Of a stretch of DNA of 62,200 nucleotides, positions 42,654 to 58,788 are shown one piece after another (within the stretch, counting starts at the first letter, position 1; the number at the start of each line of letters is the position of its first letter). Origin of the DNA: a virus; IMG/VR virus record IMGVR_UViG_3300042341_000289, positions 1 through 62,200 of that record; one strand, 5' to 3'. The notes under the pieces were generated by a model. The model saw only the letters and a list, made by a program, of their open reading frames with translations, was not told the origin of the DNA and ran no database searches. The position numbers and the translations under genes were made by a program.

Positions 42654-42669
42654 CACCAATCCCAGCTGA
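42253..42669 (+). CDS. Cys-rich putative zinc-binding protein, overlapping frame
   Basis: About 138 residues from ATG 42253. A basic N-terminus (KSSLLTFKKRLRRLAEYCGV) precedes six cysteines in a compact pattern: C73-x2-C76 (ACSKCPLYNKRMKTCG), C86, C105-x-C107 (GCWCY) and C120 (KECWL). Cys-rich phage proteins of this style (CxxCPxx then C...CxC) are common and probably bind zinc. Codons read naturally here. It lies +1 to the 409-aa frame and overlaps it almost fully, which is unusual. A weak ribosome site means the start could be elsewhere. Confidence 0.5.
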   Translation: MKSSLLTFKKRLRRLAEYCGVVASGVCSLFKHLPLSLALPRFLNATRAATAALMISSESRTPRSIWRKRLNACSKCPLYNKRMKTCGHHGETMKHRDSGRATVGCWCYIPLAAKLLDKECWLVEMNLKTTWINDTNPS

Positions 42670-43168
42670 ACAAAACGACTCCCCTGCTCATCCCGCACGG
42701 CCAGTGGGCGGCAAGCCTCCGATCTCCATGGCGGTGGCTGAAAAGGCGGCCCGCGAGGCTGGGTTCAATATCATTGACGCCAAGCAGCTGAAGGCCGCCG
42801 GCATCTTTGGCGAGTTCGTATCTCAGGTTGGAGCCATTCATCTCGGCCGATCGAGACTTGCCATGAATCTGGCACGAACCGACAAGGCCATGGATTTCTG
42901 TGAATCTGCGATCGAGAACCGAGAGTTCCCTGATCCAGAATCAATGATCGGAGTGATGAAAGTACACGCGTCACTGATCAGCGAATCTAACAAGGCGGCC
43001 GAGCTTCTGATCAAGTCGGCCCAGCAGGCGGCTGAGACCGCCAAAGCTGAGGCTATGGTAGTGTTGCCAGGATTCGCTCCGCGTGCTCAGGTTGGCCCAA
43101 CGCAGGTCAACGTGATGGTTAACGCCAGTAACGGCGCGGCCGATACTGTTGAAATCAAGGAGAACTGA
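42650..43168 (+). CDS. Hypothetical helical protein (172 aa)
   Basis: 172 residues. A Pro-rich N-terminus (1-27) is followed by helices typical of DNA-packaging or head proteins: AVAEKAAREAGFNIIDAKQL, LARTDKAMDFCESAIENREF, and a long Ala/Lys-rich helix (AAELLIKSAQQAAETAKAEA). The C-terminus is beta-like (VGPTQVNVMVNASN). By its place after TerL it could be a terminase accessory or small-subunit analogue, but this is not shown by sequence. ATGA-coupled to the upstream gene. Confidence 0.6.
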   Translation: MTPIPAEQNDSPAHPARPVGGKPPISMAVAEKAAREAGFNIIDAKQLKAAGIFGEFVSQVGAIHLGRSRLAMNLARTDKAMDFCESAIENREFPDPESMIGVMKVHASLISESNKAAELLIKSAQQAAETAKAEAMVVLPGFAPRAQVGPTQVNVMVNASNGAADTVEIKEN

Positions 43169-43171
43169 ACC

Positions 43172-43489
43172 ATGCCAGCAATCAAGGGAGTCAAACGTCT
43201 TCCGTCCGGTGGCGTCCTCTATCGGGGCGAGCGGTTTCCCGGTTTCAACAAGCCCAAGGCAGCCCCTGCCGGAGACACCCACAAGAAACGGGTGCTCGCC
43301 AAAAAGGGCAACAAGGTCAAGGTCGTTCCGTTTGGCCACCGCGGGTACAGCGACTTCACTAAACACAAGAACCCCAAGCGCAGAGCCAACTATCTCGCTC
43401 GCTCAGGAGGCATACGCAACAAGAGCGGCGAGTTGACCAAGAACGACAAGTTCTCCGCGAACTACTGGGCGAGAAGGATTCTCTGGTGA
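43172..43489 (+). CDS. Small basic phage protein (105 aa)
   Basis: 105 residues, strongly basic (Lys/Arg about one quarter), with KVKVVPFGHRGYSDFTKHKN, RRANYLARSGGIRNKSG and a C-terminal FSANYWARRILW. Similar small basic proteins with a YWA-x-x-x-LW end recur in phages beside DUF5872-type genes. DNA or capsid-interior binding is plausible but not shown. Ribosome site AAGGAGAAC upstream; the stop overlaps the next gene by ATGA-type coupling. Confidence 0.65.
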   Translation: MPAIKGVKRLPSGGVLYRGERFPGFNKPKAAPAGDTHKKRVLAKKGNKVKVVPFGHRGYSDFTKHKNPKRRANYLARSGGIRNKSGELTKNDKFSANYWARRILW

Positions 43490-43890
43490 AAGTTGCATCC
43501 AAGTCCAACCCGTCTCTCTGGAGCCGGATTGTCCGCGAGGTGAAGGCGTCGTCGAAAGGCGGCAGGCCCGGACAGTGGAGCGCCCGCAAGGCTCAGATTG
43601 CAGTGAGCCGCTACAAGGATCGTGGCGGTTCATACAAGGGTTCCAAGTCTCCGTCGAACAGCCTGTCCAAATGGACTCGTGAAGATTGGGGGACCAAGAG
43701 CGGCAAAAACTCCGTCGTCGGCCGCGGTGCCACAGGAGAGCGATACCTGCCGCGAAAAGCTCGAGAAGCCCTGAGCGACGCTGAGTATTCCGCAACAAGC
43801 GCGAAGAAGCGTGCCGGCATGAGGGCTGGTAAACAGTTCGTTCGCCAGCCTGATTCTATCGCTCGCAAGACCGCCAAGTATCGCGACTGA
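43486..43890 (+). CDS. DUF5872-like phage protein (134 aa)
   Basis: 134 residues with a pattern I associate with DUF5872: EVKASSKGGRPGQWSARKAQ, VSRYKDRGGSYKG, SLSKWTREDWGTKSGKNS and RYLPRKAREALSDAEYSATS followed by a C-terminal GKQFVRQP. Very basic. The family is widespread in phages and giant-virus-like genomes and has no established function. It is probably co-expressed with the preceding basic protein. Confidence 0.75.
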   Translation: MKVASKSNPSLWSRIVREVKASSKGGRPGQWSARKAQIAVSRYKDRGGSYKGSKSPSNSLSKWTREDWGTKSGKNSVVGRGATGERYLPRKAREALSDAEYSATSAKKRAGMRAGKQFVRQPDSIARKTAKYRD

Positions 43891-43910
43891 GCGACTCCGA
43901 CTTTCGCCTC

Positions 43911-43925
43911 ACACGGAAACCGTGT
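43911..43925 (+). terminator. Short perfect hairpin in the 43891-43941 gap
   Basis: ACACGG-AAA-CCGTGT, a 6-bp stem with a 3-base loop, 20 bases after the DUF5872-like stop. No T-run. It follows a third copy of CGACTTTCG (43898-43906). Terminator, RNA stabiliser and operator are all possible. Confidence 0.3.
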
Positions 43926-43941
43926 AGGCACCAAACGATTT

Positions 43942-44409
43942 ATGGCTACGACCACCATCTACAACAAGGCTCTGGAGCAGATCATCTCCGGGACCATGAC
44001 TCTCGCCACAACTCCTGCCGGATCGACGCCCCCTTACAAGGTGCTGCTTCTCGGATCGGGCTCGAGCTACACGCACTCCAAGGCTCACGTCTATCTGAGC
44101 GACGCGCTCGCTGCTGGTGCCGTGGAGGCGTCTGGGTCTGGGTACGACACTGGTGGCAAGACCCTCGGAAACATTTCAACCACGACCAACCAGTCCGGCA
44201 ATTTCGTGCAGGTTGAAATCAACGACGTGCAATGGGGCACTGGTGCTGGCGGTTCCACGATCACCGCGAAAGGCGCGTTGATTTACCTGCCCACTGGGAA
44301 CCCGTCCAACAGCCCGCTGCTGGCGTACATCAACTTCGACGGAACTGTGTCGTCCAACGCATCGGTGTTCACCATCGACTTCCAGACCCCTCTGAAGTTC
44401 CAGAACTGA
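43942..44409 (+). CDS. Putative virion/decoration protein (155 aa)
   Basis: 155 residues, Ser/Thr/Gly-rich and beta-predicted (TPAGSTPPYKVLLLGSGSSY, YLSDALAAGAVEASGSGYDT, KGALIYLPTGNPSNSPLLAY). This composition is common among phage decoration and tail-attached proteins encoded outside the main late operon. It stands on the plus strand away from the late operon. No enzyme motif. The assignment is structural by style only. Confidence 0.6.
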   Translation: MATTTIYNKALEQIISGTMTLATTPAGSTPPYKVLLLGSGSSYTHSKAHVYLSDALAAGAVEASGSGYDTGGKTLGNISTTTNQSGNFVQVEINDVQWGTGAGGSTITAKGALIYLPTGNPSNSPLLAYINFDGTVSSNASVFTIDFQTPLKFQN

Positions 44410-44416
44410 ACATCAC

Positions 44417-44929
44417 ATGGCTAACCTGATTGCGTTCGCGGGTTACGCCCGTGAAGGTAAGGACGCCGCCGCGACGAGGCTCATCAACCTCGGATGGGAG
44501 CGCATTGCGTTCGGTGACATCATCAAGCGCCAGATCGACTCGCTGGTGCAGCAGCATCTTGGGTTCTCGGCATTCACTGAGAACGACACCCAAAAGAAGC
44601 AGATCCGCCCGATCTTGGAACAGTGGGGCGAGGTGAACTACGACGGGGTGATGAAGGAGTTTTTCGGCTCTCTTCCAAACTACGCCGTGAACACCCGGCT
44701 GGTTCGCCTGCGTGAGGCCAAAGAGTGGATCAAGCGAGGCGGCATTATCCTACGAATCCGACGCCCCGGAGTGGAGCCTGCAACCGACTGGGAGAGAACC
44801 CGCCTACAGGAGCTCTACGACGGAGGCGTGATCCACGACACCATCATCAACGACTCGTCGCTCGATGTGCTGTGGGACCGGGTCGGCCGCTTCGCTGCTG
44901 CTGGTGACGCATACCTCCAGACTCGTTAG
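44417..44929 (+). CDS. Deoxynucleoside monophosphate kinase-like protein
   Basis: 170 residues. N-terminal P-loop GYAREGKDAAA (9-19), the GxxxxGKD form of phage dNMP kinases, followed by WERIAFGDIIKRQIDSL and WGEVNYDGVMKEFF helices. The enzyme phosphorylates dNMPs from degraded host DNA to dNDPs to feed replication. Together with ThyX and the MazG-like gene it forms a nucleotide-supply set. The stop codon lies immediately before the next promoter region. Confidence 0.8.
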   Translation: MANLIAFAGYAREGKDAAATRLINLGWERIAFGDIIKRQIDSLVQQHLGFSAFTENDTQKKQIRPILEQWGEVNYDGVMKEFFGSLPNYAVNTRLVRLREAKEWIKRGGIILRIRRPGVEPATDWERTRLQELYDGGVIHDTIINDSSLDVLWDRVGRFAAAGDAYLQTR

Positions 44930-44992: not shown

Positions 44993-45859
44993 ATGTCTAC
45001 ACCACTGTTTCGCAAAGCAACCCGCGAGAAGGTCTTCCTGAAACTCGCGGTCACCGGTCCGTCTGGTTCCGGGAAAACGTACTCGTCTCTTCGACTCGCT
45101 CGAGGACTTGTTGGCCCTGCCGGCAAGATCGCCCTCATCGATACTGAGAATCGCTCTGCGTCCCTGTACGCCGACCGATTCGATTTCGACACGCTCGACA
45201 TCGCTCCTCCGTTCGACAACGAGAAGTTCATCGAGGGAGTCAACGCGGCTGTCGAAGCTGACTACGGAGCCATAGTTATCGATAGTGCGTCGCACTTCTG
45301 GGAGGGAATCCTTGATTACAAGGACAAGCTCGATCAACGCGGCGGCAACTCCTACACCAACTGGAAGATTGCCGGCGACAAGTTCGGCGGAATCGTCAAG
45401 GCCGTGCTGCAGTCTCCTGCCCACGTCATCTGCTGCATGCGCTCCAAGATGGACTACGTTCAGGAGAAGGACGACCGAGGCAAGACCCAGATCAAGAAGG
45501 TCGGCCTGGCTCCGATCATGCGTGACGGAATCGAATACGAGTTCACCACGGTGTTCGATGTGGCGCTGAACCATCAGGCCGCTGTCTCCAAGGACCGCTC
45601 TGGCCTCTTCGTCGACAAGATCTTCCAGATCACCGAGGAGACCGGTGCGCAGCTTGAAGCGTGGCGTCTGTCCGGTGGTGAGCCTGTGTGGAAGACGCAG
45701 TTGACCGCCGTCATCGGAGCTAATGAACCCAAGGCCAACACGTTCCTCGTGACGCTTGGGTGGATCAAGGAAGGCCAAACATTCCGAGATCTGTCCGTAA
45801 CCAACGCGGAGAAGATCCTGTCAAATACGGCCGCCTTCCTCGCCAAGGCCACAGCCTAA
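44993..45859 (+). CDS. Sak4-like recombination ATPase
   Basis: 288 residues. RecA-like AAA core: Walker A GPSGSGKT (22-29), KIALIDTENRSASLYA (45-60) and Walker B GAIVIDS (92-98), with DKFGGIVKAVLQSPAHVICC and MRSKMDYVQEKD further on. Sak4-type phage ATPases work with SSB and an exonuclease for single-strand annealing recombination; both partners are encoded here (3286 and 45872). AAA_24-type family. It heads the operon behind the promoter at 44933. Confidence 0.85.
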   Translation: MSTPLFRKATREKVFLKLAVTGPSGSGKTYSSLRLARGLVGPAGKIALIDTENRSASLYADRFDFDTLDIAPPFDNEKFIEGVNAAVEADYGAIVIDSASHFWEGILDYKDKLDQRGGNSYTNWKIAGDKFGGIVKAVLQSPAHVICCMRSKMDYVQEKDDRGKTQIKKVGLAPIMRDGIEYEFTTVFDVALNHQAAVSKDRSGLFVDKIFQITEETGAQLEAWRLSGGEPVWKTQLTAVIGANEPKANTFLVTLGWIKEGQTFRDLSVTNAEKILSNTAAFLAKATA

Positions 45860-45871
45860 CCGCGATCACCC

Positions 45872-46813
45872 ATGAGAACGATACTCGACGCGAACGGGCT
45901 GGTCCATGACGGCATTCACCATCTGCTGGACGAGCGGGTGTATCGAAACGACCCTGCAATCGCCATCTCAGACCTCAAGGAGATGTCGCTGTCTCCGCTT
46001 CACTTCTGGTCCAAGAAGTTCGGCGGATATCGCGCTGAGCAAACCGAGGCTCAGGAGATCGGAACGCTGACCCACCTTTCAGTTCTTGAGCCTGAGGAGT
46101 ACGCCAGAAAGACGGTCCTCAAGCCGGCTGACGCTCCCCGGAAGCCTACTGATGCTCAGCGTAACGCCAAGAAGCCGAGCGAGGACACCATCGCAGCCAT
46201 CAAGTGGTGGGACGATTGGAGTGCCGCCAATGCTGGGAAGACCGAGCTTTCTCAGGACGAATCGACCCAAATCGCCGGTATTACTCAAGGTGTCATGTCC
46301 AATTCTGACGCAGTTCAGCTGATGGATGACGCTTTGAAGGAGGTGGCCATGTTCAAGACGATCGTCGTCAATGGAACAACCATCCGAATCAAGGGCAAGG
46401 CTGACATCATCTGCTCAAGCGGTGGCAGCGATTCGGAGGCGATTGCGGACCTCAAGACGGTAGACCGCGGATACGCAAACCCAGACGACTTCTCGTACTC
46501 AATCAAGAAGTGGGGGTACGCACAACAGGCAGCGTGGTACATCGACCTGTACAACATGTTGACCGTGACCGACGATCCGTTCACCAGTGATGTAAAGAAG
46601 AGTCGGTGGGTCTTCATTGTGGCGGAGAAGTTGCCGCCATACGTGTGCATCACACTCGAGCTCGATGAGGACTCGATTGAGGTGGGCCGAGCCATCAACA
46701 AGCGGCACCTCGAAACACTCGCAGAGTGCTTCAAGACGAACGTCTGGGAGCGTCCTCTAAATGGAATGCGCGGTCGTGTATCCATTCCTGAATGGGCCAG
46801 AAAGAAGAGTTAA
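45872..46813 (+). CDS. RecE-like 5'-3' exonuclease (PD-(D/E)XK)
   Basis: 313 residues. Resembles the phage exodeoxyribonuclease VIII type: ISDLKEMSLSPLHFW (32-46), GTLTHLSVLEPEEYA (64-78; H68), the catalytic stretch IKGKADIICSSGGSDSEAIA (D178) followed by DLKT (D193 and K195), and YAQQAAWYIDLY (216-227). It would resect double-stranded ends so that the Sak4-like ATPase and SSB can pair strands. The gap from the ATPase gene is 12 bases. A zinc-ribbon gene overlaps its 3' end by 22 bases. Confidence 0.85.
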   Translation: MRTILDANGLVHDGIHHLLDERVYRNDPAIAISDLKEMSLSPLHFWSKKFGGYRAEQTEAQEIGTLTHLSVLEPEEYARKTVLKPADAPRKPTDAQRNAKKPSEDTIAAIKWWDDWSAANAGKTELSQDESTQIAGITQGVMSNSDAVQLMDDALKEVAMFKTIVVNGTTIRIKGKADIICSSGGSDSEAIADLKTVDRGYANPDDFSYSIKKWGYAQQAAWYIDLYNMLTVTDDPFTSDVKKSRWVFIVAEKLPPYVCITLELDEDSIEVGRAINKRHLETLAECFKTNVWERPLNGMRGRVSIPEWARKKS

Positions 46814-49890: not shown

Positions 49891-50603
49891 AAATCAGATC
49901 CTACCAAGAGCGCGTCTACAACTGGCAGCGCGATGTCGCAGCCCAGCCCGTTACGAAGACGCCAACGCAACGCGATCCCGAGTTCTGCAAGAAGCAGTTG
50001 GGGTTCGTGAAGTCCGAGTGGTATGACGAGTACATCATCCACGCCGCCACCTACAACGAACTGCTCAGTTCGGTTCCAGCACTGTTCGAGGAGGGTATCA
50101 CCAAGAAGATCGACAACATCCGGGAAAACATCGCCGATGATATCGGAGACGTGGCTTTCACGGTTCTCGGCCTTCTTAACGCCTACGGCGTCATGCTCGA
50201 CAACATCTCGTTCTCGAGATCAACCGACATGAACGTGCTCGCCCTTGAGAGGCGTGTCGACCTGTTCATCAAGGGGGTGGAGGACACGGACAAGCTGCAG
50301 GCCTCTGATGCCAAGGCGGTGCTGCTGGATCTGATCGCGCTGTCCACGTACTACTCGGTGCGATTCTGGGACGCTCTGGGCGCTGTGTGCGCCAGCAACG
50401 ACACCAAGCTCTGGACGCTGCCGGAGGTACATGATAACCAGCTGAAGATCGAGAGCCTGAAGTGGACCGAAACCAAGGTCGCAGGCGTGACAGGTGACCG
50501 GTGCTACCGCATCAAGAATCAGGACGGGAAGCTGATGAAGAGCCCGTCTTTCACCGGGCCGGACCTCCGATCTGCCCTGATGCAATTCGTGTCCTTGACA
50601 TGA
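49887..50603 (+). CDS. MazG-like NTP pyrophosphohydrolase
   Basis: 238 residues. All-alpha MazG-type core: VKSEWYDEY (about 41-49) and IADDIGDVAFTVLGL (82-96) supply the metal-binding acidic residues. A C-terminal segment (KLWTLPEVHDNQLKIESLKW, then YRIKNQDGKLMKSPSFTGPD) is the substrate-side signature seen in phage MazG-like enzymes, where KLMKSPSF is the KVIKSP-type motif. These enzymes hydrolyse NTPs or dNTPs and can lower alarmone or free unusual nucleotides. ATGA-coupled to dnaB. Confidence 0.75.
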   Translation: MKIRSYQERVYNWQRDVAAQPVTKTPTQRDPEFCKKQLGFVKSEWYDEYIIHAATYNELLSSVPALFEEGITKKIDNIRENIADDIGDVAFTVLGLLNAYGVMLDNISFSRSTDMNVLALERRVDLFIKGVEDTDKLQASDAKAVLLDLIALSTYYSVRFWDALGAVCASNDTKLWTLPEVHDNQLKIESLKWTETKVAGVTGDRCYRIKNQDGKLMKSPSFTGPDLRSALMQFVSLT

Positions 50604-50623
50604 ACCATTCGGTGTATTACACC
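50595..50623 (+). promoter_or_regulatory. Promoter of the accessory region
   Basis: TTGACA (50595-50600), 17-base spacer, TACACC (50618-50623), with GGTGTATTACACC at 50611-50623. The ATG at 50631 lies 7 bases after the -10, so the transcript is predicted to begin at or near the start codon. Confidence 0.8.
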
Positions 50624-50630
50624 TTTCCAC

Positions 50631-50837
50631 ATGGCTGAAACACCAGACAAGAAGATCGACGTTTCCAAGATGGAGCAGTTCGATCCGCCGCATTGCCCGA
50701 TTCACGGAGGCTCAATGCCTGTCATCAACACGACGCCGAACAACGGTGTCGACCTTCACGGGATCGCCGGCAAGTGGTGCGGAGTTTGCATCATCAAGGC
50801 GCTCGAGAAACTCGGGGTCCAGAAGTGCATCGTATGA
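50631..50837 (+). CDS. Small Cys/His protein (68 aa), predicted leaderless
   Basis: 68 residues with PPHCPIHGG near residues 19-27 and WCGVCIIKALEKLG with CxxC near 49-62, possibly a zinc site. No family recognised. No Shine-Dalgarno fits between promoter and ATG. ATGA-coupled to the next gene. Confidence 0.6.
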   Translation: MAETPDKKIDVSKMEQFDPPHCPIHGGSMPVINTTPNNGVDLHGIAGKWCGVCIIKALEKLGVQKCIV

Positions 50838-51025
50838 ATCCAGGAGACAAGTACCAGAGTGTCCACAACCCAAACACCGTGGTTGAAGTCGTGTGCCCTG
50901 TTGCCGAGTTCAGGATCGGAGAGGTCCGGCAGCCGTGCATCATCTACACCAAGAGGCAGCGGTTTTACGTGCGAACCGAAGCTGAGTTTCTCGCGAAATT
51001 CAGGCCGATTCAATCGGGCCAATGA
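50834..51025 (+). CDS. Small hypothetical protein (63 aa)
   Basis: 63 residues from ATG 50834 (MNPGDKYQSVHNPNTVVEVV), a beta-rich small domain with CPVAEFRIGEVRQPCIIYTK. SH3-like or OB-like by style. Coupled by ATGA to the previous gene, GGAGACAAG lies just downstream of the start rather than before it. Function unknown. Confidence 0.55.
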   Translation: MNPGDKYQSVHNPNTVVEVVCPVAEFRIGEVRQPCIIYTKRQRFYVRTEAEFLAKFRPIQSGQ

Positions 51026-51036
51026 CCAATTCAGAT

Positions 51037-51065
51037 TTGACAATCACACCTCGGTGTAAGACACC
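51037..51065 (+). promoter_or_regulatory. Promoter for the RHH-protein gene
   Basis: TTGACA (51037-51042), 17-base spacer, GACACC (51060-51065); palindrome GGTGTAAGACACC at 51053-51065. ATG 51079 is 13 bases on. Confidence 0.7.
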
Positions 51066-51078
51066 TTCCGAAACGAAG

Positions 51079-51297
51079 ATGCCTAACCAACGAGGAAAAT
51101 CTCAAGCACTGCTCGCAGTATGGATCTCCAAGCCTCAATTGAAGGAACTGGACAAGTCTTCCGCCTCCAAGCAGATGACTCGGTCCGAGTACGTCAGGCA
51201 TCGCCTATTCCAAGCCGACGAGTCGCAGCAAAGCGCAAAATCGGCACGTTCCAAGCCGGTGGTCTCCGCGTTACGGCGTGGGTCGAAAAAGGCATGA
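51079..51297 (+). CDS. Ribbon-helix-helix-like DNA-binding protein (72 aa)
   Basis: 72 residues from ATG 51079. Residues 8-38 (ALLAVWISKPQLKELDKSSA, then MTRSEYVRHRL) read as a ribbon-helix-helix: a beta-strand, helix A and helix B in the Arc/CopG pattern. The C-terminus is basic. With a promoter 14 bases upstream carrying a palindrome, it may autoregulate by binding it, or bind all members of the promoter family; this is inference. An upstream in-frame ATG at 51022 lies inside the promoter and was not used. Confidence 0.65.
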   Translation: MPNQRGKSQALLAVWISKPQLKELDKSSASKQMTRSEYVRHRLFQADESQQSAKSARSKPVVSALRRGSKKA

Positions 51298-51395
51298 TCT
51301 GTTTCAGGCAGAAGTACAGCCGCAAGGTTGAGCGTATCAGCCTTGATGAGACATGGCATCATGCCATCGGCCAGTTGGAGATGCGCCTGAAATGA
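51294..51395 (+). CDS. Very small protein (33 aa)
   Basis: 33 residues (MICFRQKYSRKVERISLDET...), basic. ATGA with the preceding gene and ATGA with the next, so its frame is fixed by coupling on both sides. No domain recognised. Either a functional peptide or a translational bridge. Confidence 0.45.
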   Translation: MICFRQKYSRKVERISLDETWHHAIGQLEMRLK

Positions 51396-51634
51396 GCAAG
51401 ACAATCTCCAGCGTGACCCGTCTTTCCCTCACTGGTGGTCGCACCGTGACGGTATGGCGGTCGGAGACTGGACTCCTCAAGGAGTACGAATACAACGACG
51501 TGATCGGTCACGCGATCATGTCGACTGGGATGCCAGTCCATAAACTGGCAGACAGCATTTTCACGAACCTCAAGAACATCCGTGCAGTCGAGGTTATCGA
51601 CGGCAACGGACAAGGGGTTCGCATCGAGAAGTAG
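51392..51634 (+). CDS. Small hypothetical protein (80 aa)
   Basis: 80 residues from ATG 51392 (MSKTISSVTRLSLTGGRTVT). Beta-strand-rich N-terminus, GHAIMSTGMPVHKLADSIFT helix, then NLKNIRAVEVIDGNGQGVRI. No family recognised. Last gene before a hairpin cluster at 51640-51753. Confidence 0.55.
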   Translation: MSKTISSVTRLSLTGGRTVTVWRSETGLLKEYEYNDVIGHAIMSTGMPVHKLADSIFTNLKNIRAVEVIDGNGQGVRIEK

Positions 51635-51639
51635 TTTTT

Positions 51640-51657
51640 GGGCGGTTTGCCCCGCCC
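51640..51657 (+). terminator. GC hairpin after the 80-aa gene
   Basis: GGGCGG (51640-51645), TTTGCC loop, CCGCCC (51652-51657). No T-run follows (GAAATT). Weak terminator candidate. Confidence 0.35.
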
Positions 51658-51723
51658 GAAATTCACGAGTTCGGATCGGCTCCCGAGTGGGATGACCGAA
51701 TCAATCCGGCCCGTGTGGTCTAT

Positions 51724-51753
51724 GCCCCCTGGTGCGCGATGGCACTGGGGGGC
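51724..51753 (+). other. Long imperfect hairpin upstream of 51778
   Basis: GCCCCC (51724-51729) pairs with GGGGGC (51748-51753) and GTGC with GCAC inside (51732-51735 with 51742-51745). It ends 24 bases before the ATG at 51778 and could be a leader structure. Confidence 0.4.
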
Positions 51754-51777
51754 TCTCCTCCCAACACCAGCAGAACC

Positions 51778-51969
51778 ATGAAACCAAACCTGTACGCAAT
51801 CATCAGCCGCCTAGTCCTTGACGGAGTTGGTCAAGGCATCCGCAACACCGAGAGTGCTGCGCCGTCAGTCCAGCCGAGAACTGTCGAGAACCTCACTGAG
51901 AACATCCACATGGCAGTCATGCGGGAGCTCACCGAGTACTTCACATTCAAAGACGATGATAAGCAGTAA
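51778..51969 (+). CDS. Small hypothetical protein (63 aa)
   Basis: 63 residues from ATG 51778 (MKPNLYAIISRLVLDGVGQG). A helical N-terminus, then NLTENIHMAVMRELTEYFTF, amphipathic. No family recognised. Overlaps the following two-HTH gene by 14 bases, so the pair may be co-translated. Confidence 0.5.
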   Translation: MKPNLYAIISRLVLDGVGQGIRNTESAAPSVQPRTVENLTENIHMAVMRELTEYFTFKDDDKQ

Positions 51970-52324
51970 GCCGATTCGTCTCCCGTTGGATGACATCAAG
52001 GGTGTTATCAACGATTTGAAGAGGGGCTGCACCGTGGCTGAGATCACGAGCAAGTGGCACATCTCAACGAGAACATTCTACAGGATCAAGTATCTCGAGA
52101 AGCTGCCAACCAAGGACATTTACACACGCGGGGACTCGCATTGGCCCTGTGTCCACAGCGAGGAGAAAATCCGAGCAATCGTCGCAGAGCGCAAGAAGGG
52201 TGTGTTGCTCAAGGATCTGTCAGCCAAGTACGGAGTCGCACAGAGCTACATCAGCAGCATTATGAACGGTCACAAAAGGGAGCAAACAAAATGGACGAGA
52301 AACACCAAGAAGAGTCGGAACTGA
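51956..52324 (+). CDS. Second double helix-turn-helix protein (122 aa)
   Basis: 122 residues from ATG 51956. Two HTH units: CTVAEITSKWHISTRTFYRI and LLKDLSAKYGVAQSYISSIM, resembling homeodomain-like phage regulators. The layout resembles the protein at 1120-1701. Basic C-terminus (HKREQTKWTRNTKKSRN). Likely DNA-binding; the regulated genes are unknown. Confidence 0.65.
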   Translation: MISSKPIRLPLDDIKGVINDLKRGCTVAEITSKWHISTRTFYRIKYLEKLPTKDIYTRGDSHWPCVHSEEKIRAIVAERKKGVLLKDLSAKYGVAQSYISSIMNGHKREQTKWTRNTKKSRN

Positions 52325-52551
52325 TTCAGAGCCTGATCGAGAGCATCTCGGATAGGTTCGACACCATCCAGGTGTTTACCACTTCGCACAATCCAGACAC
52401 TGGAGAGACGACCCACATCGCAATGGGCACAGGGAACTTCTATGCCCGCATTGGCCAGATTGATGAATGGGTGCGAATGCAGAAAGAGATCGTCAGGGAA
52501 AAGGCCAAACAGATTGCCGGATCAGAAAACGCTGAGTTCGGTCAGAACTAA
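52291..52551 (+). CDS. Hypothetical protein (86 aa)
   Basis: 86 residues from ATG 52291 (MDEKHQEESELIQSLIESIS), GGGAG lies 10 bases upstream. Helical N-terminus, beta-strand FDTIQVFTTSHNPDTGETTH and a C-terminal helix (WVRMQKEIVREKAKQIAGSE). Similar small proteins occur in phage accessory regions. Overlaps the HTH gene by 34 bases. Confidence 0.6.
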   Translation: MDEKHQEESELIQSLIESISDRFDTIQVFTTSHNPDTGETTHIAMGTGNFYARIGQIDEWVRMQKEIVREKAKQIAGSENAEFGQN

Positions 52552-52578
52552 CAGCATCGAAACACGCCAAGAAACCAC

Positions 52579-53556
52579 ATGAAACTAGCCAGCATCGAGG
52601 TCATCAAGGAGATCGCACCTCACTCCAACGCAGACTCGCTCGAAATCGCCAAGGTTCTCGGGTGGCAGATCATCGTCCGCAAGGGCGAGTTCAAGGCCGG
52701 TGAGTCCGTCGTTTTCATCCCCATCGACACCATCCTGCCCGATGCCGAGTGGTCGGCGTTCCTGAAGAAGGGCGACAAGCCGATTCGGCTCAACACCATC
52801 CGTCTGCGCGGCGAGTACAGTCAGGGGCTGATCCAGCCGCTCTCGATCCTGCCTGAACACGTCCGTGGGTGGCAGGAAGGCGCTGACGTTGGCGGCGAAC
52901 TGGGCATCAAGAAGCACGAGAAAGAGATTCCGGCGTGCCTGTCCGGTGAGGTGGCTGGAGCTTTCCCAACCTCCTACGCCCCGAAGACGGACGAGGACAA
53001 CGGCCTGAGCCATCCTGATATCGTGAAGCACACGCTGTCGAAGCCGTGTGTTGCCACGCTGAAGCTGGACGGTTCTTCATGCACCATCGTGGTTGTCGAT
53101 GGCAACATCACGCACGTCTGCAGCCGCAACCTGTCGCTCAAGGAATCAGCCTCGAACGGGTTTTGGATCGCTGCGAGGAAGCTGACCATCCCGCCGGGTG
53201 CCAACTGCGTCATCCAAGGCGAGTTGATGGGTCCGGGTGTGCAGGGGAACCAGTTGAAGCTCACTGAGCCGACGCTCTTCGTCTACCAGATCCGTGATCT
53301 CACCAATGGCAAATGGCTTCGATACATCGATATGGCTCAGGTGTGCCGAGACAAGTTCCAGTGCAAGTGCGTCCCTGTCGTTACCGTTACTGTCGATGAA
53401 ACCATTGAACACCTGCAGAGCGTCGCCGACATCGTAACGCTGCCTGACGGCAAACCTGCCGAGGGAATCGTCGTTCGCCCAATCGATGGCGAGGCTATGG
53501 GCATCGGTCGGCCGCTGGGTTTCAAGATCATCAACCGCAACTACAAGGACCAGTAA
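52579..53556 (+). CDS. RNA ligase (DRB0094/Rnl-type)
   Basis: 325 residues. An N-terminal OB-like domain (MKLASIEVIKEIAPHSNADS, about 1-130) precedes the nucleotidyltransferase core: motif I KLDGS (K162), motif Ia CSRNLSL (181-187), motif III QGELMGPG (E215), motif IV EGIVVRP (295-301) and motif V GFKIINRNY (K316). The Lys takes AMP from ATP and seals RNA ends. The OB-first order is that of the Deinococcus-type RNA ligases. In a phage it may repair tRNAs cut by host defence nucleases; no polynucleotide kinase is visible, so partner enzymes are unknown. Confidence 0.9.
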   Translation: MKLASIEVIKEIAPHSNADSLEIAKVLGWQIIVRKGEFKAGESVVFIPIDTILPDAEWSAFLKKGDKPIRLNTIRLRGEYSQGLIQPLSILPEHVRGWQEGADVGGELGIKKHEKEIPACLSGEVAGAFPTSYAPKTDEDNGLSHPDIVKHTLSKPCVATLKLDGSSCTIVVVDGNITHVCSRNLSLKESASNGFWIAARKLTIPPGANCVIQGELMGPGVQGNQLKLTEPTLFVYQIRDLTNGKWLRYIDMAQVCRDKFQCKCVPVVTVTVDETIEHLQSVADIVTLPDGKPAEGIVVRPIDGEAMGIGRPLGFKIINRNYKDQ

Positions 53557-53558
53557 CC

Positions 53559-53795
53559 ATGCCAACCAACACCACCGCACACGAGGACCGCGTCATTAAC
53601 GACGCAGAGAGCGTCATCACCGGGAAGATCCAGTCCCTCATCGAGGTTGTCACCAGACTCGATGATGTCATCGACGAGAAGGACAAGGAGATCGAGACGC
53701 TGAAAGGGAAGGTCACAGACCTTGAAGGCGAAATCGAAGAACTGAAGTCGCAGATCTCCTCGATGAATGATGAGATCAAGAGCCACGGAGGATAA
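53559..53795 (+). CDS. Coiled-coil protein (78 aa)
   Basis: 78 residues. From about residue 22 the sequence is a continuous acidic/basic coiled coil (VVTRLDDVIDEKDKEIETLK, GKVTDLEGEIEELKSQISSM). It starts 2 bases after the ligase stop. No family recognised. Part of a run of short helical genes (53559-55030). Confidence 0.6.
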   Translation: MPTNTTAHEDRVINDAESVITGKIQSLIEVVTRLDDVIDEKDKEIETLKGKVTDLEGEIEELKSQISSMNDEIKSHGG

Positions 53796-53797
53796 CC

Positions 53798-54247
53798 ATG
53801 GATACCCCTACAGAAACCCTGATCCAAGCGTTGCGGCATCTGTCCACTGACATCGAGTCAGAGGACGGTGTGGCCAACGCTGCGATTGCTGAGGCTGCCC
53901 AGCGTCTGGAGGAGCAGAGCGCGAAGATCAAGCGGCTGCGTGACGGCATCGCGAAGCAGAACCTCGAGATCGAGCAGACCTGCGGAAAGGTGCTCGACTA
54001 CCCGTGGTTCAAGGACGACCAGAAGAACTTCCCCGGCGCGACCGAGAAGGACGGCGTGTGCGTTGGTGACCATGTGGCTGAGACCATCGCGGCCGAGTTG
54101 GCGCGGAAGTACACGGAGGCGATGGACCGCATCAAGCGGCTGGAGGACGCTGGAGATGCGATGGATGAATGGATGTCATCCGACTGGACTGAAGATGAGA
54201 AGCAGTTCCAAGAACAATGGCGCAAAGCCAAGGAGGCCAAGCCGTGA
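53798..54247 (+). CDS. Small helical protein with KEAKP end (149 aa)
   Basis: 149 residues: two helical blocks and a conserved end, DRIKRLEDAGDAMDEWMSS ... QWRKAKEAKP. The block from IKRLE to KEAKP is shared with the proteins at 54588 and 54824. The DNA for KEAKP is AAGGAGGCCAAGCCGTGA (54230-54247), which also contains the Shine-Dalgarno and GTG start of the next gene. No enzyme motif. Confidence 0.6.
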   Translation: MDTPTETLIQALRHLSTDIESEDGVANAAIAEAAQRLEEQSAKIKRLRDGIAKQNLEIEQTCGKVLDYPWFKDDQKNFPGATEKDGVCVGDHVAETIAAELARKYTEAMDRIKRLEDAGDAMDEWMSSDWTEDEKQFQEQWRKAKEAKP

Positions 54248-54591
54248 ATACGTTGATATTGGAAGACATCGACGAAACCAGCACCGGAGCGAAACCAAGC
54301 GTTGCTGTTGTCAGCGTAAAAACAAGCTACTACAGCACCAAGCGAGGGTTCGCCACGACGAAGCGAATCGATTTCCTCAAACGCAAGAGCGACCGGGAGT
54401 GCGTCTACTCCATCAAAGAAGATGCATCCTTTTGCGGCACCGATGCAGTCATTGGTCGAATAATCAACCTGAATGATGTCAAGGATGGAATTTACCGAAT
54501 GATCTTCATCAACGAACACCGCGACTGGGATTCTGGACACATTGAGGACTGGGACTACAAGTTGGTTCCACATGAGGAGACCAAGCCGTGA
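54244..54591 (+). CDS. Hypothetical protein (115 aa), GTG start
   Basis: 115 residues from GTG 54244, beta-rich (PSVAVVSVKTSYYSTKRGFA, CVYSIKEDASFCGTDAVIGR) and ending in HEETKP. The last codons, GAGGAGACCAAGCCGTGA (54574-54591), are a diverged copy of the coupling cassette. Function unknown. Confidence 0.55.
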   Translation: MNTLILEDIDETSTGAKPSVAVVSVKTSYYSTKRGFATTKRIDFLKRKSDRECVYSIKEDASFCGTDAVIGRIINLNDVKDGIYRMIFINEHRDWDSGHIEDWDYKLVPHEETKP

Positions 54592-54827
54592 GCATTGAAG
54601 AGCGAATCATAAAAGTAGTTGAAGAGCCGCTTGGTCTATGGGCGGTGCAGCGCAACAAGCGCGAACTCCGCGCAATCGCTCTCGAAGTCAACAAGCTGGA
54701 GGACCGCATCAAGCGGCTGGAGGAGGTGGGGGATGCGATGGCTGCATGGCTGTTAGACCCAAGGAACTTGGGCGGCGGGTCGTCTATGGCTTCGCAATGG
54801 CGCAAATCCAAGGAGGCCAAGCCGTGA
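54588..54827 (+). CDS. KEAKP-family small helical protein (79 aa)
   Basis: 79 residues from GTG 54588. VNKLEDRIKRLEEVGDAMAA then QWRKSKEAKP repeats the second half of the 53798 product. DNA AAGGAGGCCAAGCCGTGA (54810-54827) couples it to the next gene. Confidence 0.55.
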   Translation: MSIEERIIKVVEEPLGLWAVQRNKRELRAIALEVNKLEDRIKRLEEVGDAMAAWLLDPRNLGGGSSMASQWRKSKEAKP

Positions 54828-55030
54828 GTGATACCGATTTCATTGCATACGAGAACCACAGATTGACCATTGCAAACGCGGAACTCCGAAAGGAGCGCGA
54901 TGAACTGGAGCAGCACATCAAGCGGCTGGAGGCAGCGGGGGATGAAATGTACAGATGGATAACTGTCAAACGATTATGTTCAATCGACTGCACCGAAGCA
55001 TGGGACCAAGCCAAGGAGGCCAAGCCGTGA
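54824..55030 (+). CDS. KEAKP-family small helical protein (68 aa)
   Basis: 68 residues from GTG 54824. RDELEQHIKRLEAAGDEMYR then AWDQAKEAKP; third member of the family. DNA AAGGAGGCCAAGCCGTGA (55013-55030) couples it to the membrane-protein gene that follows. Confidence 0.55.
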   Translation: MSDTDFIAYENHRLTIANAELRKERDELEQHIKRLEAAGDEMYRWITVKRLCSIDCTEAWDQAKEAKP

Positions 55031-55227
55031 GACGCCTTCTGAAACGCATCAGGCAATCCTGTCGATTCAACGACGTCCAAGCTGCCGCTGTGCTCCTAAT
55101 GTCTGTTTCGATGGTTATTGGGTACGCCACAGGTTCACGAGAGTTCAACCCGTGGGTCGCGCTTGCACTGCTCTGCTTATGGCCAGCAATGGCTTTCACC
55201 AGCAACTTCCTTGACCCGCTCCCATGA
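55027..55227 (+). CDS. Small membrane protein (66 aa)
   Basis: 66 residues from GTG 55027. A basic N-terminus (MRRLLKRIRQSCRFN) then two hydrophobic helices (about 18-36 AAAVLLMSVSMVIGYATGS and 42-60 WVALALLCLWPAMAFTSNF). Inner-membrane protein of unknown role; the positive-inside rule suggests both ends face inward. Overlaps the next gene by 4 bases. Confidence 0.6.
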   Translation: MRRLLKRIRQSCRFNDVQAAAVLLMSVSMVIGYATGSREFNPWVALALLCLWPAMAFTSNFLDPLP

Positions 55228-55442
55228 CCTACGACGACCTGATCAAGGTGATGGATTTTGCGCCGTCACCACTGACCGCGAAGAAGACGCTTGCGGTCAT
55301 AGATCGAGACCAGTCGCGCATCACCGGTTTCGTCCTGACTGGGAGGAACGGGGAGACCACCATCGTGAACTCCTCTGCGGTCAGGTGGCTGTCAGGGAAG
55401 GAGATGTGGGAGTTGATGCACGGGAATGGAGGTGGGGCGTGA
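55224..55442 (+). CDS. Hypothetical protein (72 aa)
   Basis: 72 residues: TYDDLIKVMDFAPSPLTAKK, then a beta-strand pair (TLAVIDRDQSRITGFVLTGR, TTIVNSSAVRWLSGKEM). No family recognised. ATGA/GTGA coupling with both neighbours. Confidence 0.5.
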   Translation: MTYDDLIKVMDFAPSPLTAKKTLAVIDRDQSRITGFVLTGRNGETTIVNSSAVRWLSGKEMWELMHGNGGGA

Positions 55443-55690
55443 GGCGGTACGCCATCGAGCGGCTTCCGCACATGCCGCCGAGAAACGGACTCCTGATTCA
55501 CACGCCCAAGTTTTCCGTGCTCGCTGACACCGCCCCGCTCACGATTGTGAAGGAGCTTAATAGGCTGCTGGATAGGAACAGGGCGCTGGAGGCCGCGATC
55601 CGCACAACGCTCGACGCCAACCGGCACCTTGCCGACGGCGACGACTGCACACTGATTCAACTCAAGAAGGCGCTACCCGAGTGGGTTTAA
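55439..55690 (+). CDS. Hypothetical protein (83 aa)
   Basis: 83 residues from GTG 55439 (MRRYAIERLPHMPPRNGLLI). A basic N-terminus, then an amphipathic helical C-terminus (TIVKELNRLLDRNRALEAAI and TLDANRHLADGDDCTLIQLK). No family recognised. Strong GGAGGTG lies before the GTG. Confidence 0.5.
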   Translation: MRRYAIERLPHMPPRNGLLIHTPKFSVLADTAPLTIVKELNRLLDRNRALEAAIRTTLDANRHLADGDDCTLIQLKKALPEWV

Positions 55691-55709
55691 CCAAGAAGGA
55701 GGACATCGA

Positions 55710-56252
55710 TTGAGCTACCATCAGTCAGGGCAACTGCCGCACCACCAATACTGCTACGTTGACGCAGCAGCTATCAGCAGCGGTGAAGGGTTCATGCCAT
55801 GCGTCTGGTTCGGACTTGTCTCGATACCGGGCCGAATGTGGGGCTGCACGGTCATGCTGGAATGCGGGGCGGTCTACAGATCGATCCCGCCGCACCTGAT
55901 GGCCTTCAACGAGAAGCCAGATGCGATCTGGACCCCGCAGCAAGCTCAGCGATGGGACTGCTACGGCAGAGAGTTCTCCACCATCGAGTACACCTACCTG
56001 CGCGGGGTCGAGTGCTCAGCGAAATGCGACGACCAGAAGCTGGACGGAGAGTACATCTTCACGGCAGCACCCATCGACGACGGGTTTTCGCGGCACCCAT
56101 CACAGGCCAAGGAGTTCATGTTCATCAAGCTCTACAACGGGAGGTTGACGATCCAGCCGACCGACAAGGTGCTCTTCATGGAGAAGTCGTTTGTGGAGCC
56201 CCAGTGGCCTACGGGGCTCAAACTCTCGAACGAAGTGTGGTCTTGCGAGTGA
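55710..56252 (+). CDS. Hypothetical protein (180 aa), TTG start
   Basis: 180 residues from TTG 55710, supported by AAGGAGG 8 bases upstream. Rich in aromatic residues and Cys (HHQYCYVDAAAISSGEGFMP, WFGLVSIPGRMWGCTVMLEC), beta-like. No family recognised. It precedes a small membrane-protein gene. Confidence 0.6.
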   Translation: MSYHQSGQLPHHQYCYVDAAAISSGEGFMPCVWFGLVSIPGRMWGCTVMLECGAVYRSIPPHLMAFNEKPDAIWTPQQAQRWDCYGREFSTIEYTYLRGVECSAKCDDQKLDGEYIFTAAPIDDGFSRHPSQAKEFMFIKLYNGRLTIQPTDKVLFMEKSFVEPQWPTGLKLSNEVWSCE

Positions 56253-56272
56253 CTCCTTGAGATTCTAGGTCC

Positions 56273-56425
56273 ATGGATTTCATCAAGAAAATCGTCCTTG
56301 AGCTCTGGTGCATGGCCTACGGCGTCGGCCTCTTCATCCTCGCGACGTGGCCGATCGCCCTCTCGCTGGGTGTATGCGTCCTGTTCGTTGCGATTCCCCG
56401 AAAAAAACGCAATCGGGCATCTTGA
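56273..56425 (+). CDS. Small two-helix membrane protein (50 aa)
   Basis: ATG 56273 gives MDFIKKIVLELWCMAYGVGL, FILATWPIALSLGVCVLFVA and IPRKKRNRAS: two hydrophobic helices with a charged tail. An AGG-type ribosome site (TCTAGGT) stands before the ATG. It resembles small holin-like or phage membrane regulators. Its stop codon overlaps the promoter hexamer TTGACT. Confidence 0.5.
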   Translation: MDFIKKIVLELWCMAYGVGLFILATWPIALSLGVCVLFVAIPRKKRNRAS

Positions 56426-56450
56426 CTCGGGATATTAGGTGTATTACACC
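56422..56450 (+). promoter_or_regulatory. Promoter of the thyX operon
   Basis: TTGACT (56422-56427), 17-base spacer, TACACC (56445-56450); palindrome GGTGTATTACACC at 56438-56450. ATG 56463 is 12 bases after the -10. Confidence 0.75.
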
Positions 56451-56462
56451 TGTTCCCGCTAC

Positions 56463-57209
56463 ATGAAAGTTTCCTCCGTATCCGTCACAAAGTCGATCGT
56501 CACCGACAACGGTCGCGAGCTCACCCCAGACGAGCTCATCGTCTACGAGGCTCGGGTCTCGAACCCGAATAACCAGCACAACCACGATACCGGGCCGAAG
56601 CTGCTGCACTTTTGCATGCGCGAGGGCCACTGGTCGGTGTTCGAGCAGGCCGATCTGACCGTCGAGATCGAGACCAGCATCTCCATCTCGATGCAGATCC
56701 TGCGCCACTGGAGCGCACGGTTCCAGCAGTTCAGTCAGCGGTACGCCGACGTGCGTAAGCTGGAGACCATCATCGAGCCGATTCGGCTGCGTATGAAGGC
56801 GGCTGGCGGCAACCGGCAGGGCAGCGGTGAGGAGTTGGCCGAAGACCATCCGATGCAGGTAGTCTACCGGAACGCGGTACACAGAGCGGTCGGCGTCTAC
56901 ACCGCACTCATCGATGGCGGTGTCGCGCCGGAGAGCGCCCGCTTCGTCCTGCCGCTGGCCACCAAGACTCGGATGTTCATGAAGGGTAGCGCGAGGACGT
57001 GGATTCACTACCTCGACCAGCGCACGTCGCCGCACGCCCAGAAGGAGCACCGTGAGGTGGCCGAGGCGATCCGCGCTGAGTTCGCCAAGCATTTCCCGAC
57101 GGTCCACGAGGCGATGGGCCTGCGGGTGAGCGAGGTCCAGTCGCTCAAGAACGAGATCGAACGCCTGAAGCTGGAACTGAACAACATGAAGAAAGAGAAC
57201 GTATGCTGA
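56463..57209 (+). CDS. thyX: Flavin-dependent thymidylate synthase ThyX
   Basis: 248 residues from ATG 56463. Contains KLLHFCMREGHWSVFEQADL, the ThyX signature region RHWSARFQQFSQRY (81-94), ARFVLPLATKTRMFMKGSAR and HYLDQRTSPHAQKEHREVAE. The enzyme makes dTMP from dUMP using FAD and methylene-tetrahydrofolate. In the usual RHRxxSxNxxSxRY motif the third residue is Arg; here it is Trp83, with Arg86 three residues on. It starts 12 bases after a promoter, so a Shine-Dalgarno is lacking. Overlaps the Tad2-like gene by 7 bases. Confidence 0.9.
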   Translation: MKVSSVSVTKSIVTDNGRELTPDELIVYEARVSNPNNQHNHDTGPKLLHFCMREGHWSVFEQADLTVEIETSISISMQILRHWSARFQQFSQRYADVRKLETIIEPIRLRMKAAGGNRQGSGEELAEDHPMQVVYRNAVHRAVGVYTALIDGGVAPESARFVLPLATKTRMFMKGSARTWIHYLDQRTSPHAQKEHREVAEAIRAEFAKHFPTVHEAMGLRVSEVQSLKNEIERLKLELNNMKKENVC

Positions 57210-57445
57210 ACTTCGGACAAGCATTGGAATGGCTCAAGAAGGGCAAGGCCATCTACCGCTCAGGGTGGAACGGCAAGGGCATGTGGCTGCAGCTGCAGAC
57301 GCCCGATGCCAACAGCAAGATGACGCTGCCCTACATCTACATCGAGTACCCCAAGGGCCACCCGGCCTACCCCAACGGATCGCGTGTGCCGTGGCTGGCC
57401 CCGCAGACCGACATCCTCGCCAACGATTGGGCCTATAACGCCTGA
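57203..57445 (+). CDS. DUF2829 / Tad2-like (anti-Thoeris family) protein
   Basis: 80 residues. MLNFGQALEWLKKGKAIYRS, GWNGKGMWLQL, PYIYIE and VPWLAPQTDILANDWAYNA match the DUF2829 family (NFGEAL..L..G...R.GWNGKGM ... VPW..SQ.D.LA.DW). Members of this family (Tad2) bind the cyclic ADP-ribose signal of Thoeris immune systems and block it; the known role is of the family, not proven here. Some members are just phage proteins of unknown role. It overlaps thyX and precedes a strong hairpin. Confidence 0.8.
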   Translation: MLNFGQALEWLKKGKAIYRSGWNGKGMWLQLQTPDANSKMTLPYIYIEYPKGHPAYPNGSRVPWLAPQTDILANDWAYNA

Positions 57446-57449
57446 CACC

Positions 57450-57477
57450 ATGATCCCGAAATTCGTTTCGGGATCAT
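57450..57477 (+). terminator. Perfect 12-bp hairpin with TTCG loop
   Basis: ATGATCCCGAAA (57450-57461), loop TTCG, TTTCGGGATCAT (57466-57477). It is followed by CCCCTTTCG rather than a T-run. Terminator-like hairpin, or a processing/stability element between the thyX-tad2 pair and the DHH gene. Confidence 0.6.
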
Positions 57478-57490
57478 CCCCTTTCGCACC

Positions 57491-58471
57491 ATGAAATTCG
57501 CAATCGTCTATCATTCAGAGGACTTCGATGGAAAGCTCTCCAACGAGGTCTGCCGCTACTGGCTGAACCGCCTGCATCCCAACGCCAACATCCACTCCTA
57601 CGGGTGGGACTATGGACGGCCTGTTCCGACTCCATTGCACAAGTGGTGGGATCCGAATGCGGGTGATCAATTCTCGAACGAATGGTCGCTGTACGACGCC
57701 ATCTACATCGTGGACCTGTCGGTGGACGAGTTGATGGCTCGCACCGATCTCGACGAGAAGATCATCTGGATCGACCACCACAAGAGCGCCATTGAGAAGT
57801 GGGACAATCCGTTGGTGGAGCGGCTAGTGATCATGGGCTACCGCATCGACGGCGTGGCCGCATGCCGACTGTGCTGGCAGTGGTTCGTCAATTCGGCTGG
57901 CTATCTTGGTGTGCTGCCTTCCAAGCAGGACTTCATCGACCGCAATGTGCAGGAGCCCGCCTTGATCCGCCTTGCCGGAGAGTACGACATCTGGGACCAC
58001 CGAAACCCGAATGGGAAGTTTCTACAGTTTGGTCTTCGATCGATTGATGATGCTGAGTTTCGAGAGCTTTTAATGGCTCAGTTTTTGGGCTTAGACGACC
58101 ATCATTTGGCAGCCGTGATCGAAACAGGTGTGTCCATCAAGTCCTACTGCGACAAAATGGCTGACGAGTACAGCGCGGCATACGCGCACACCATCAAGTG
58201 GGAGGGTCTGACCTTCTGCGCCCTGAACATCGGGCAGCGCGGCAACAGCGACCTGCTCAAGGGCGGCATCAAGCCGGAGCACGATGCCTGCTTCGCGTGG
58301 CGCTTCGACGGGAAGCAGGTGCTGGTGAGCCTCTACCACATAGAGGGGAAGACGCACCACGACCTGTCGCTGATCGCCGTGAAGTACGGTGGCGGTGGTC
58401 ACAAGGGGGCGTGCGGGTTCCGTGTTCCGCTGGTTCAGCTGAACAACATCTTGGCAGGAGGTGCCGTGTGA
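57491..58471 (+). CDS. DHH-family phosphoesterase
   Basis: 326 residues. DHH motifs: YHSEDFDGKLS (H8, D11, D13), IYIVDLS (D75), IIWIDHHKS (D95, H96, H97) and the C-terminal DHHA1 GGGGHKGACGF (300-310), which binds substrate. Family members hydrolyse short oligonucleotides (nanoRNases) or cyclic dinucleotides such as c-di-AMP. In a phage it might recycle nucleotides or degrade immune signals (inference). It follows the 57450 hairpin by 13 bases. Confidence 0.85.
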   Translation: MKFAIVYHSEDFDGKLSNEVCRYWLNRLHPNANIHSYGWDYGRPVPTPLHKWWDPNAGDQFSNEWSLYDAIYIVDLSVDELMARTDLDEKIIWIDHHKSAIEKWDNPLVERLVIMGYRIDGVAACRLCWQWFVNSAGYLGVLPSKQDFIDRNVQEPALIRLAGEYDIWDHRNPNGKFLQFGLRSIDDAEFRELLMAQFLGLDDHHLAAVIETGVSIKSYCDKMADEYSAAYAHTIKWEGLTFCALNIGQRGNSDLLKGGIKPEHDACFAWRFDGKQVLVSLYHIEGKTHHDLSLIAVKYGGGGHKGACGFRVPLVQLNNILAGGAV

Positions 58472-58788
58472 GCGAACTGACCACAGACAAGCTGACCGCA
58501 CTCCTTCACCAGAAGGCGGACGCTGAGCTCAACCAGAAGCTGAGCTATCTCGACAAGTGCTGGGAGAAAGACGATGCATTCAAGGTCTACACCAAGTCGG
58601 AGCACACGAACGGTGGGGGCGTCACGATTCGCAATGATACGTGGATTCCGGGTCTGATGATCACCGTTCGCAAGGCGGTCTTCGAGACGATGCGCGACAA
58701 GAACCGGGAGCGGTACGTCGCGGAGTGGCTGTACAAGGTAAACCAGACGCTCGACGCGGTGAACAACCTGCATGGAGGTGAGCAGTGA
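58468..58788 (+). CDS. Hypothetical protein (106 aa), GTG start
   Basis: 106 residues from GTG 58468, with AGGAGGTG just upstream (58456-58463). Helical N-terminus (SELTTDKLTALLHQKADAEL), then VTIRNDTWIPGLMITVRKAV. No family recognised. GTGA coupling with the DHH gene; the next start (58785) also uses a GTG overlapping its stop. Confidence 0.55.
   Translation: MSELTTDKLTALLHQKADAELNQKLSYLDKCWEKDDAFKVYTKSEHTNGGGVTIRNDTWIPGLMITVRKAVFETMRDKNRERYVAEWLYKVNQTLDAVNNLHGGEQ

Follow-up and report, generated by a model that had tools for sequence, protein, structure and literature searches.

Two recurrent coding joints as probable sites of exchange in small-gene arrays of uncultured phages

The window analysed here is a complete IMG/VR virus record of 62,200 nucleotides (IMGVR_UViG_3300042341_000289), in which a chain of short genes lies on the plus strand downstream of a gene for an RNA ligase (Table 1). 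Five genes are joined by copies of an 18-nt sequence, here called the seam, and a GTGA overlap links gene 6 without a seam. Gene 7 is taken as the right border of the variable array, because it follows directly after a seam in three other contigs. A tyrosine integrase gene (2065-3246) and a tRNA-Met gene at a distance of 1.4 kb (4673-4747) suggest a temperate phage. The minus strand of 5226-14000 carries an ORF of 2924 amino acids, which is very large for a 62-kb phage.

The original prediction of three exact copies of the 18-mer and one diverged copy was confirmed at the same positions, the diverged copy having two mismatches; at up to three mismatches, 0.03 matches per window would be expected by chance, and the 18-mer family was absent from the rest of the 62.2-kb record. 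Each exact copy contains both the KEAKP-stop of one ORF and the GTG that opens the next, and consists of the last five residues and the stop, a full Shine-Dalgarno sequence (AAGGAGG), a 7-nt spacer and a GTG overlapping the stop. Apart from the spacer, this arrangement had been predicted as well; the diverged copy encodes EETKP-stop, and its GTG likewise opens the next ORF. AAGGAGG pairs fully with the anti-Shine-Dalgarno sequence of the 16S rRNA and a spacing of 7 nt is near the ideal. Translational coupling at the seam would follow from this anatomy, and the overlapping stop and start would suit re-initiation. The copies at 54230 and 54810 also have the 15 nt 5' of the seam in common (33 nt in total, 97%). 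A search of the array revealed no inverted repeats, and the seams folded no better than shuffled sequences, with no notable stem-loop. For the region 50600-58500, Rfam returned zero matches and a search directed at sigma-70-like promoters found none.

Table 1. Seam copies, helix joints and genes of the array, and two genes upstream of it (window coordinates; handles beginning with L denote other loci)
Feature	Position	Strand	Observation
Seam copy 1, exact, AAGGAGGCCAAGCCGTGA	54230-54247	+	Matches of relatives break here
Seam copy 2, two mismatches, GAGGAGACCAAGCCGTGA	54574-54591	+	L042 match ends at 54592
Seam copy 3, exact	54810-54827	+	Found in 18-mer scan
Seam copy 4, exact	55013-55030	+	L132 match ends here
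Helix joint, diverged (IKRLR; IKRLRDG), in 149-aa gene	53927-53943	+	L040 and L041 matches end at 53937 and 53938
Helix joint ATCAAGCGGCTGGAGGA (IKRLE), in 149-aa gene	54131-54147	+	L042 and L044 matches restart at 54125 and 54124
Helix joint, in 79-aa gene	54708-54724	+	L043 breaks about 16 nt past the joint, inside the extended joint
Helix joint, in 68-aa gene	54917-54933	+	L132 match begins here
Gene 1, 149 aa; modules 53798-53926, 53944-54130 and 54148-54229	53798-54247	+	Each module known from other contexts
Gene 2, 115 aa, without helix joint	54244-54591	+	Behind other genes in L042, L043, L045 and L113
Gene 3, 79 aa; front half 54588-54707, back half 54725-54809	54588-54827	+	L043 has the front half (99% identical) joined to a different back half
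Gene 4, 68 aa; front half 54824-54916, back half 54934-55012	54824-55030	+	L132 has the back half (97% identical) behind a different front half
Gene 5, 66 aa	55027-55227	+	Starts at seam copy 4, different ending
Gene 6, 72 aa, C-terminus HGNGGGA-stop	55224-55442	+	Linked by GTGA overlap, no seam
Gene 7, 83 aa	55439-55690	+	Directly 3' of a seam in L038, L039 and L040
ATPase resembling Sak4-like ssDNA annealing proteins, possible recombinase	44993-45859	+	PHROG 124, 3.1e-11
Exonuclease VIII-like protein, possible partner	45872-46813	+	PHROG 412, 9.6e-56

A second recurrent element lies inside the genes. The helix IKRLE..GD.M..W, reported in the original prediction for three proteins, was indeed found there in the form of 53-nt copies. 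Relative to the copy at 54124, those at 54701 and 54910 are 87% and 72% identical, respectively, and 53927 is the position of a fourth copy, which is diverged (IKRLRDG). The helix is encoded by conserved DNA, about GANCGCATCAAGCGGCTGGAGGAGGCGGGGGAT (helix joint ATCAAGCGGCTGGAGGA), and is lacking in two of the five array proteins, those of 115 and 66 amino acids. Pair tests at helix joints of different loci yielded 334 pairs with homology on the left only and 175 on the right only (509 one-sided) versus 31 two-sided pairs, and one back half occurs behind several front halves and vice versa. The helix is a second, separate exchange point within genes, at which front and back halves are swapped. 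Since the 149-aa protein contains two helix joints, it is composed of three modules; in its AlphaFold model, which is of modest confidence (mean pLDDT 70.9), the protein is mostly helical and both joints lie in long helices. The middle module (53944-54130, PWFKDDQKNFPGATEKDGVCVGDHVAETIAAELA) is present in many viral contigs of up to 167 kb in varied settings and has no family name. The possibility of an internal translation start at this joint was rejected, as the residues after the joint vary.

The exact 18-mer was detected in at least 119 stretches of IMG/VR viral contigs. A control sequence with the first two codons swapped occurred in 2 stretches, and one in which Shine-Dalgarno sequence, stop and start were kept and the spacer was scrambled in 1, so that neither composition nor a good ribosome site accounts for the recurrence of the seam. 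Nearly all copies are placed between two genes: an open stretch of 50 codons or more precedes 92% of 172 distinct seam sites in the KEAKP frame (median 108 codons, versus 18 and 10 for the two other frames) and follows 97% of them from the GTG onwards. Up to 11 seams per locus were counted at three or fewer mismatches. Looking for the unit between different genes of other phages had been proposed along with the original prediction, and it was found between hundreds of different gene pairs; the flanking genes fell into 114 left and 129 right families, which formed 206 adjacencies among 221 seam contexts. An optimal Shine-Dalgarno sequence in this frame reads KEAKP, and the distance of 7 nt between AAGGAGG and the start is almost ideal, so unrelated junctions might have reached the same sequence by convergence. 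This is extremely improbable given that the control scans contradict it (1 stretch with the same Shine-Dalgarno sequence and scrambled spacer versus at least 119), that synonymous codons are avoided and that the flanks are 95-100% identical on one side.

The codons of the tail were examined in 36 KEAK[PL] tails from loci that had not been selected via the 18-mer. GAG was used in 36 of 36 tails (55% usage in the same genes), GCC in 32 of 36 (22%) and, for proline, CCG in 27 of 29 (36%). Such nearly fixed codons indicate constraint or shared descent at the DNA level. Furthermore, one family of membrane proteins ends in FKWKECK or FKWKEAKP depending on the seam that follows, and the tail therefore belongs to the seam. 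A C-terminal proline slows termination, and the KEAKP tail could accordingly function as a peptide signal, such as a tag for degradation or for slowed termination, maintained by selection at the protein level. We consider this very improbable, as the codons are fixed beyond what the residues alone would require and the tail changes with the seam, in the membrane family and to KEAKL or KEVKP elsewhere. Another seam, TGGAAGGAGTGCAAATGA (WKECK-stop with an ATG start), was observed in at least 120 stretches (e.g. L064:4891-4908 and L066:12832-12849), where it mainly ends one family of small membrane proteins and has many different followers. It was rejected as an equal second system, given that its only 18 left families are similar membrane proteins and that it is thus mainly the end of one family.

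Seam junctions were compared pairwise after identical contexts had been collapsed. In the larger set of loci, 309 pairs showed homology on one side only and 8 on both sides (122 and 3 in the first set of pairs). On the shared side, mean identity stayed at about 0.9 as far as the seam; at the seam edges it fell to 0.28, with values of 0.25-0.31 across the other side, except for a few seam-adjacent bases that are common to many copies. When called genes were used as a control for border types, one-sided versus two-sided pairs numbered 11 versus 1 at exact seams and 10 versus 0 at near-seams, both small samples, in comparison to 101 versus 134 at other overlapping junctions and 83 versus 53 at non-overlapping ones. 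At least 95% identity over 110-120 nt on one side, with unrelated DNA on the other, was found in 41 pairs. In the median case, their loci have about 10% of the shorter one in common (at 80% identity or more); a single exception with 95% of the locus in common represents an exchange between near-identical genomes. These 41 pairs point to recent movement between dissimilar phages, and the seam is a site where genes were exchanged.

All evidence on the seam comes from metagenome contigs. A total of 121 adjacency pairs were found again across different metagenome ids, some of which may come from one site, and many of them at 99-100% identity, which argues against assembly chimeras; one contig (L037) is identical to the window across 4.8 kb. 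We regard chimeric assembly at 18 nt as unlikely.

The original prediction had interpreted the repeats as a duplicated gene-plus-coupling unit. This was mostly wrong, as the flanking genes are generally unrelated and the helix is an exchange point of its own inside the genes. Tandem duplication and divergence of one such unit in each phage would explain why the 149-aa and 79-aa proteins have similar C-termini (87% over 53 nt, 97% over 33 nt), and this particular likeness may result from local duplication. The numerous gene families on both sides of the seam and the modules at least 95% identical in dissimilar contigs, however, already contradict duplication as the main process; we judge it very unlikely, and it accounts for little of the recurrence of the seam. 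The other part of that prediction, spread by recombination with insertion of new short genes, gained strong support, since homology breaks at the seam edges and relatives gain and lose genes there.

This gain and loss became visible when gene contents around the seam were compared, as had also been proposed, in contigs encoding an RNA ligase 73-98% identical to that of the window (most 94-98%). The arrays downstream of the ligase differ among these near relatives and range from one or two genes up to five or six. Each of the ten points at which alignments end within the array is no more than 16 nt away from a joint; zones of this kind make up 25% of the region, which gives a nominal p of about 1e-6. 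With a limit of 5 nt, the count is five of ten (p 0.007). The events in both counts are not fully independent. One contig (L044) is 98% identical to 54124-54247, from joint to joint, and has different DNA on either side, and in another (L043) the common front half of the 79-aa gene is followed by another back half. The otherwise dissimilar contig L132 has 54912-55030 in common with the window at 94%; its other matches are of seam length or about 70% identical. A distant RNA ligase is carried by Limnohabitans phage DC31.

We therefore consider it likely that the window contains a shuffled array of small genes, in which two standard joints recombine between copies and every product has working borders. 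One joint (IKRLEEAGD, about 30 nt) is situated in a predicted helix within many of the genes and divides the front from the back half of a gene, and the other is the 18-nt seam. Copies of the same joint would recombine within a genome or between co-infecting phages and thereby add, remove or replace a gene or half-gene. After a crossover at the seam, the upstream frame would stay closed and the downstream gene translatable; after one at the helix, both frame and helix would be kept. The same sequence would recur between unrelated genes because the joint carries everything needed at a border. The likely mechanism is rare short-homology recombination, the products of which are kept since they have an intact gene end, ribosome site and start. 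We infer that the shared short sequence itself is the site of strand exchange, perhaps with the aid of phage annealing proteins, and selection for functional borders is probably as important as homology.

Candidates for such proteins are encoded about 7-9 kb upstream of the array by the Sak4-like and exonuclease VIII-like genes of the window. Their link to the seam across loci is weak, with the annealing protein found in 6 and the exonuclease in 33 of 119 seam-bearing loci, which are partial; the best PHROG match of the ATPase is PHROG 1366, of unknown function. Rad52-like phage recombinases work on diverged DNA (PMC3945230). Against this mechanism stands the length of the seam, since 18 nt, or about 33 nt with the neighbouring identity, is short for homologous recombination, and a phi80 region with a longest perfect identity of 11 bp yielded no recombinants above 1e-8 (PMC3945230). 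In addition, the breakpoints in close relatives are possibly not independent events.

The short homology is equally an argument for illegitimate recombination at any position, where the survivors are those that keep gene end, ribosome site and start, and the seam is a good border rather than a promoter of exchange. Random exchange followed by selection is the classical view of phage mosaicism, and other borders in the same loci also exchange (one-sided fraction 0.43-0.61). This explanation is possible but less probable than recombination at the joints, because exchange is enriched at seams (0.92-1.0 versus 0.43 at other overlapping borders), the helix joint inside genes also exchanges, and spacer and codons are fixed beyond the needs of a ribosome site. 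The sharp, recurrent breakpoints and the array structure would also be compatible with a dedicated, integron-like site-specific recombinase that recognises the seam. Two unrelated joint sequences are in use, the array is without inverted repeats and the window integrase, 50 kb away, was found in 1 of 119 loci, which makes such an enzyme highly improbable.

The nin region of lambda is similarly a chain of small genes with stop/start overlaps (ATGA) and the Shine-Dalgarno sequence inside the preceding gene, and several of its genes end alike (NinB RAA, NinC EAA, NinG EAA, NinI EGA), as do the seam tails. Recombination at boundaries has reportedly been proposed for the nin and other lambdoid gene borders, and homology breaks at gene borders in the arrays described here, too. 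In lambda 40200-44700 (L185), four nin borders combine similar ends, a Shine-Dalgarno sequence and ATGA in a looser version of this plan. The nin borders are, however, only loosely alike and mostly use ATG, whereas the seam is a single 18-mer that occurs in exact form at far more than a hundred borders; a further difference is the additional joint within genes. A search of the lambda nin borders did not reveal the 18-mer, and there were no protein matches to phage records.

A repeat with a Shine-Dalgarno core adjoining the starts of different genes is also known from cluster K mycobacteriophages, whose SAS is a short asymmetric repeat with an AGGAG core just 5' of the starts of small non-structural genes (PMC3203893). 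SAS comprises 13 bp (GGGATAGGAGCCC), usually precedes ATG and was proposed to act in translation, with no constant encoded tail described (PMC3203893), whereas the seam encodes a tail. Scanning the window for the SAS consensus gave one match with two mismatches, at 37140, which is at chance level (1.01 expected). The PeSL cassettes of T4-type phages, border elements tied to gene shuffling, are non-coding and consist of a promoter and a stem-loop. The seam resembles them as a repeated border element linked to shuffling, but is coding and has no notable fold, and the early promoter and stem-loop typical of PeSL were not found in the searches described above. With integrons the arrays share the reassortment of small genes at a common element; here, in contrast, the joint lies within coding sequence. 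No hairpin-forming attC site was found among inverted repeats or folds, and the only integrase was the distant phage enzyme of the window, the other loci being partial. The arrays differ from lambda nin and SAS in how exact the seam is, in the tail dictated by it, in having a second joint within genes and in how far exchange extends.

How mosaic phages keep working borders as genes move is an old question, and arguments about it usually draw on rare examples. In these arrays, the border sequence is constant, exchange is frequent and recent, and protein halves are shuffled at a second joint. It is in our view evenly balanced whether many uncultured phages draw on a common pool of small genes and half-genes, fitted with two coding joints that can be interchanged, and build new proteins and operons from it by recombination at these joints without a dedicated recombinase. 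If true, such a pool with standard joints would be a phage counterpart to exon shuffling and integrons. The 18-nt seam in any case provides a sequence handle for finding shuffled arrays of small genes.

Searches for isolate relatives by DNA and protein gave nothing useful, short-query matches in isolates were at chance level, and the seam was confidently identified in none of the isolates. An exact 18-nt piece consisting of part of the seam and the next bases is present at the gene 50/51 border of Arthrobacter phage RadFad (OP434442.1, 31259-31276), with an E-value at chance level and the right position. A scan of bacterial genomes with a 24-mer for possible hosts resulted in one chance match inside a Myxococcaceae gene, and our literature search found no paper describing KEAKP in phages.

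The proteins of seam arrays are almost all without known families. Among 100 representative proteins starting at a seam, only six Pfam families were matched, by one member each and mostly coiled coil, and the PADLOC matches of seam proteins were weak, many of them to coiled-coil proteins. From their place near replication genes, we can only guess that the arrays are early, host-directed or accessory. PHROG matches of the 100 proteins include exonuclease VIII and a transcriptional regulator. A 259-aa gene located right after a seam (L125:4099-4875) is likely the exonuclease VIII match, so that the arrays may themselves include a gene for recombination.
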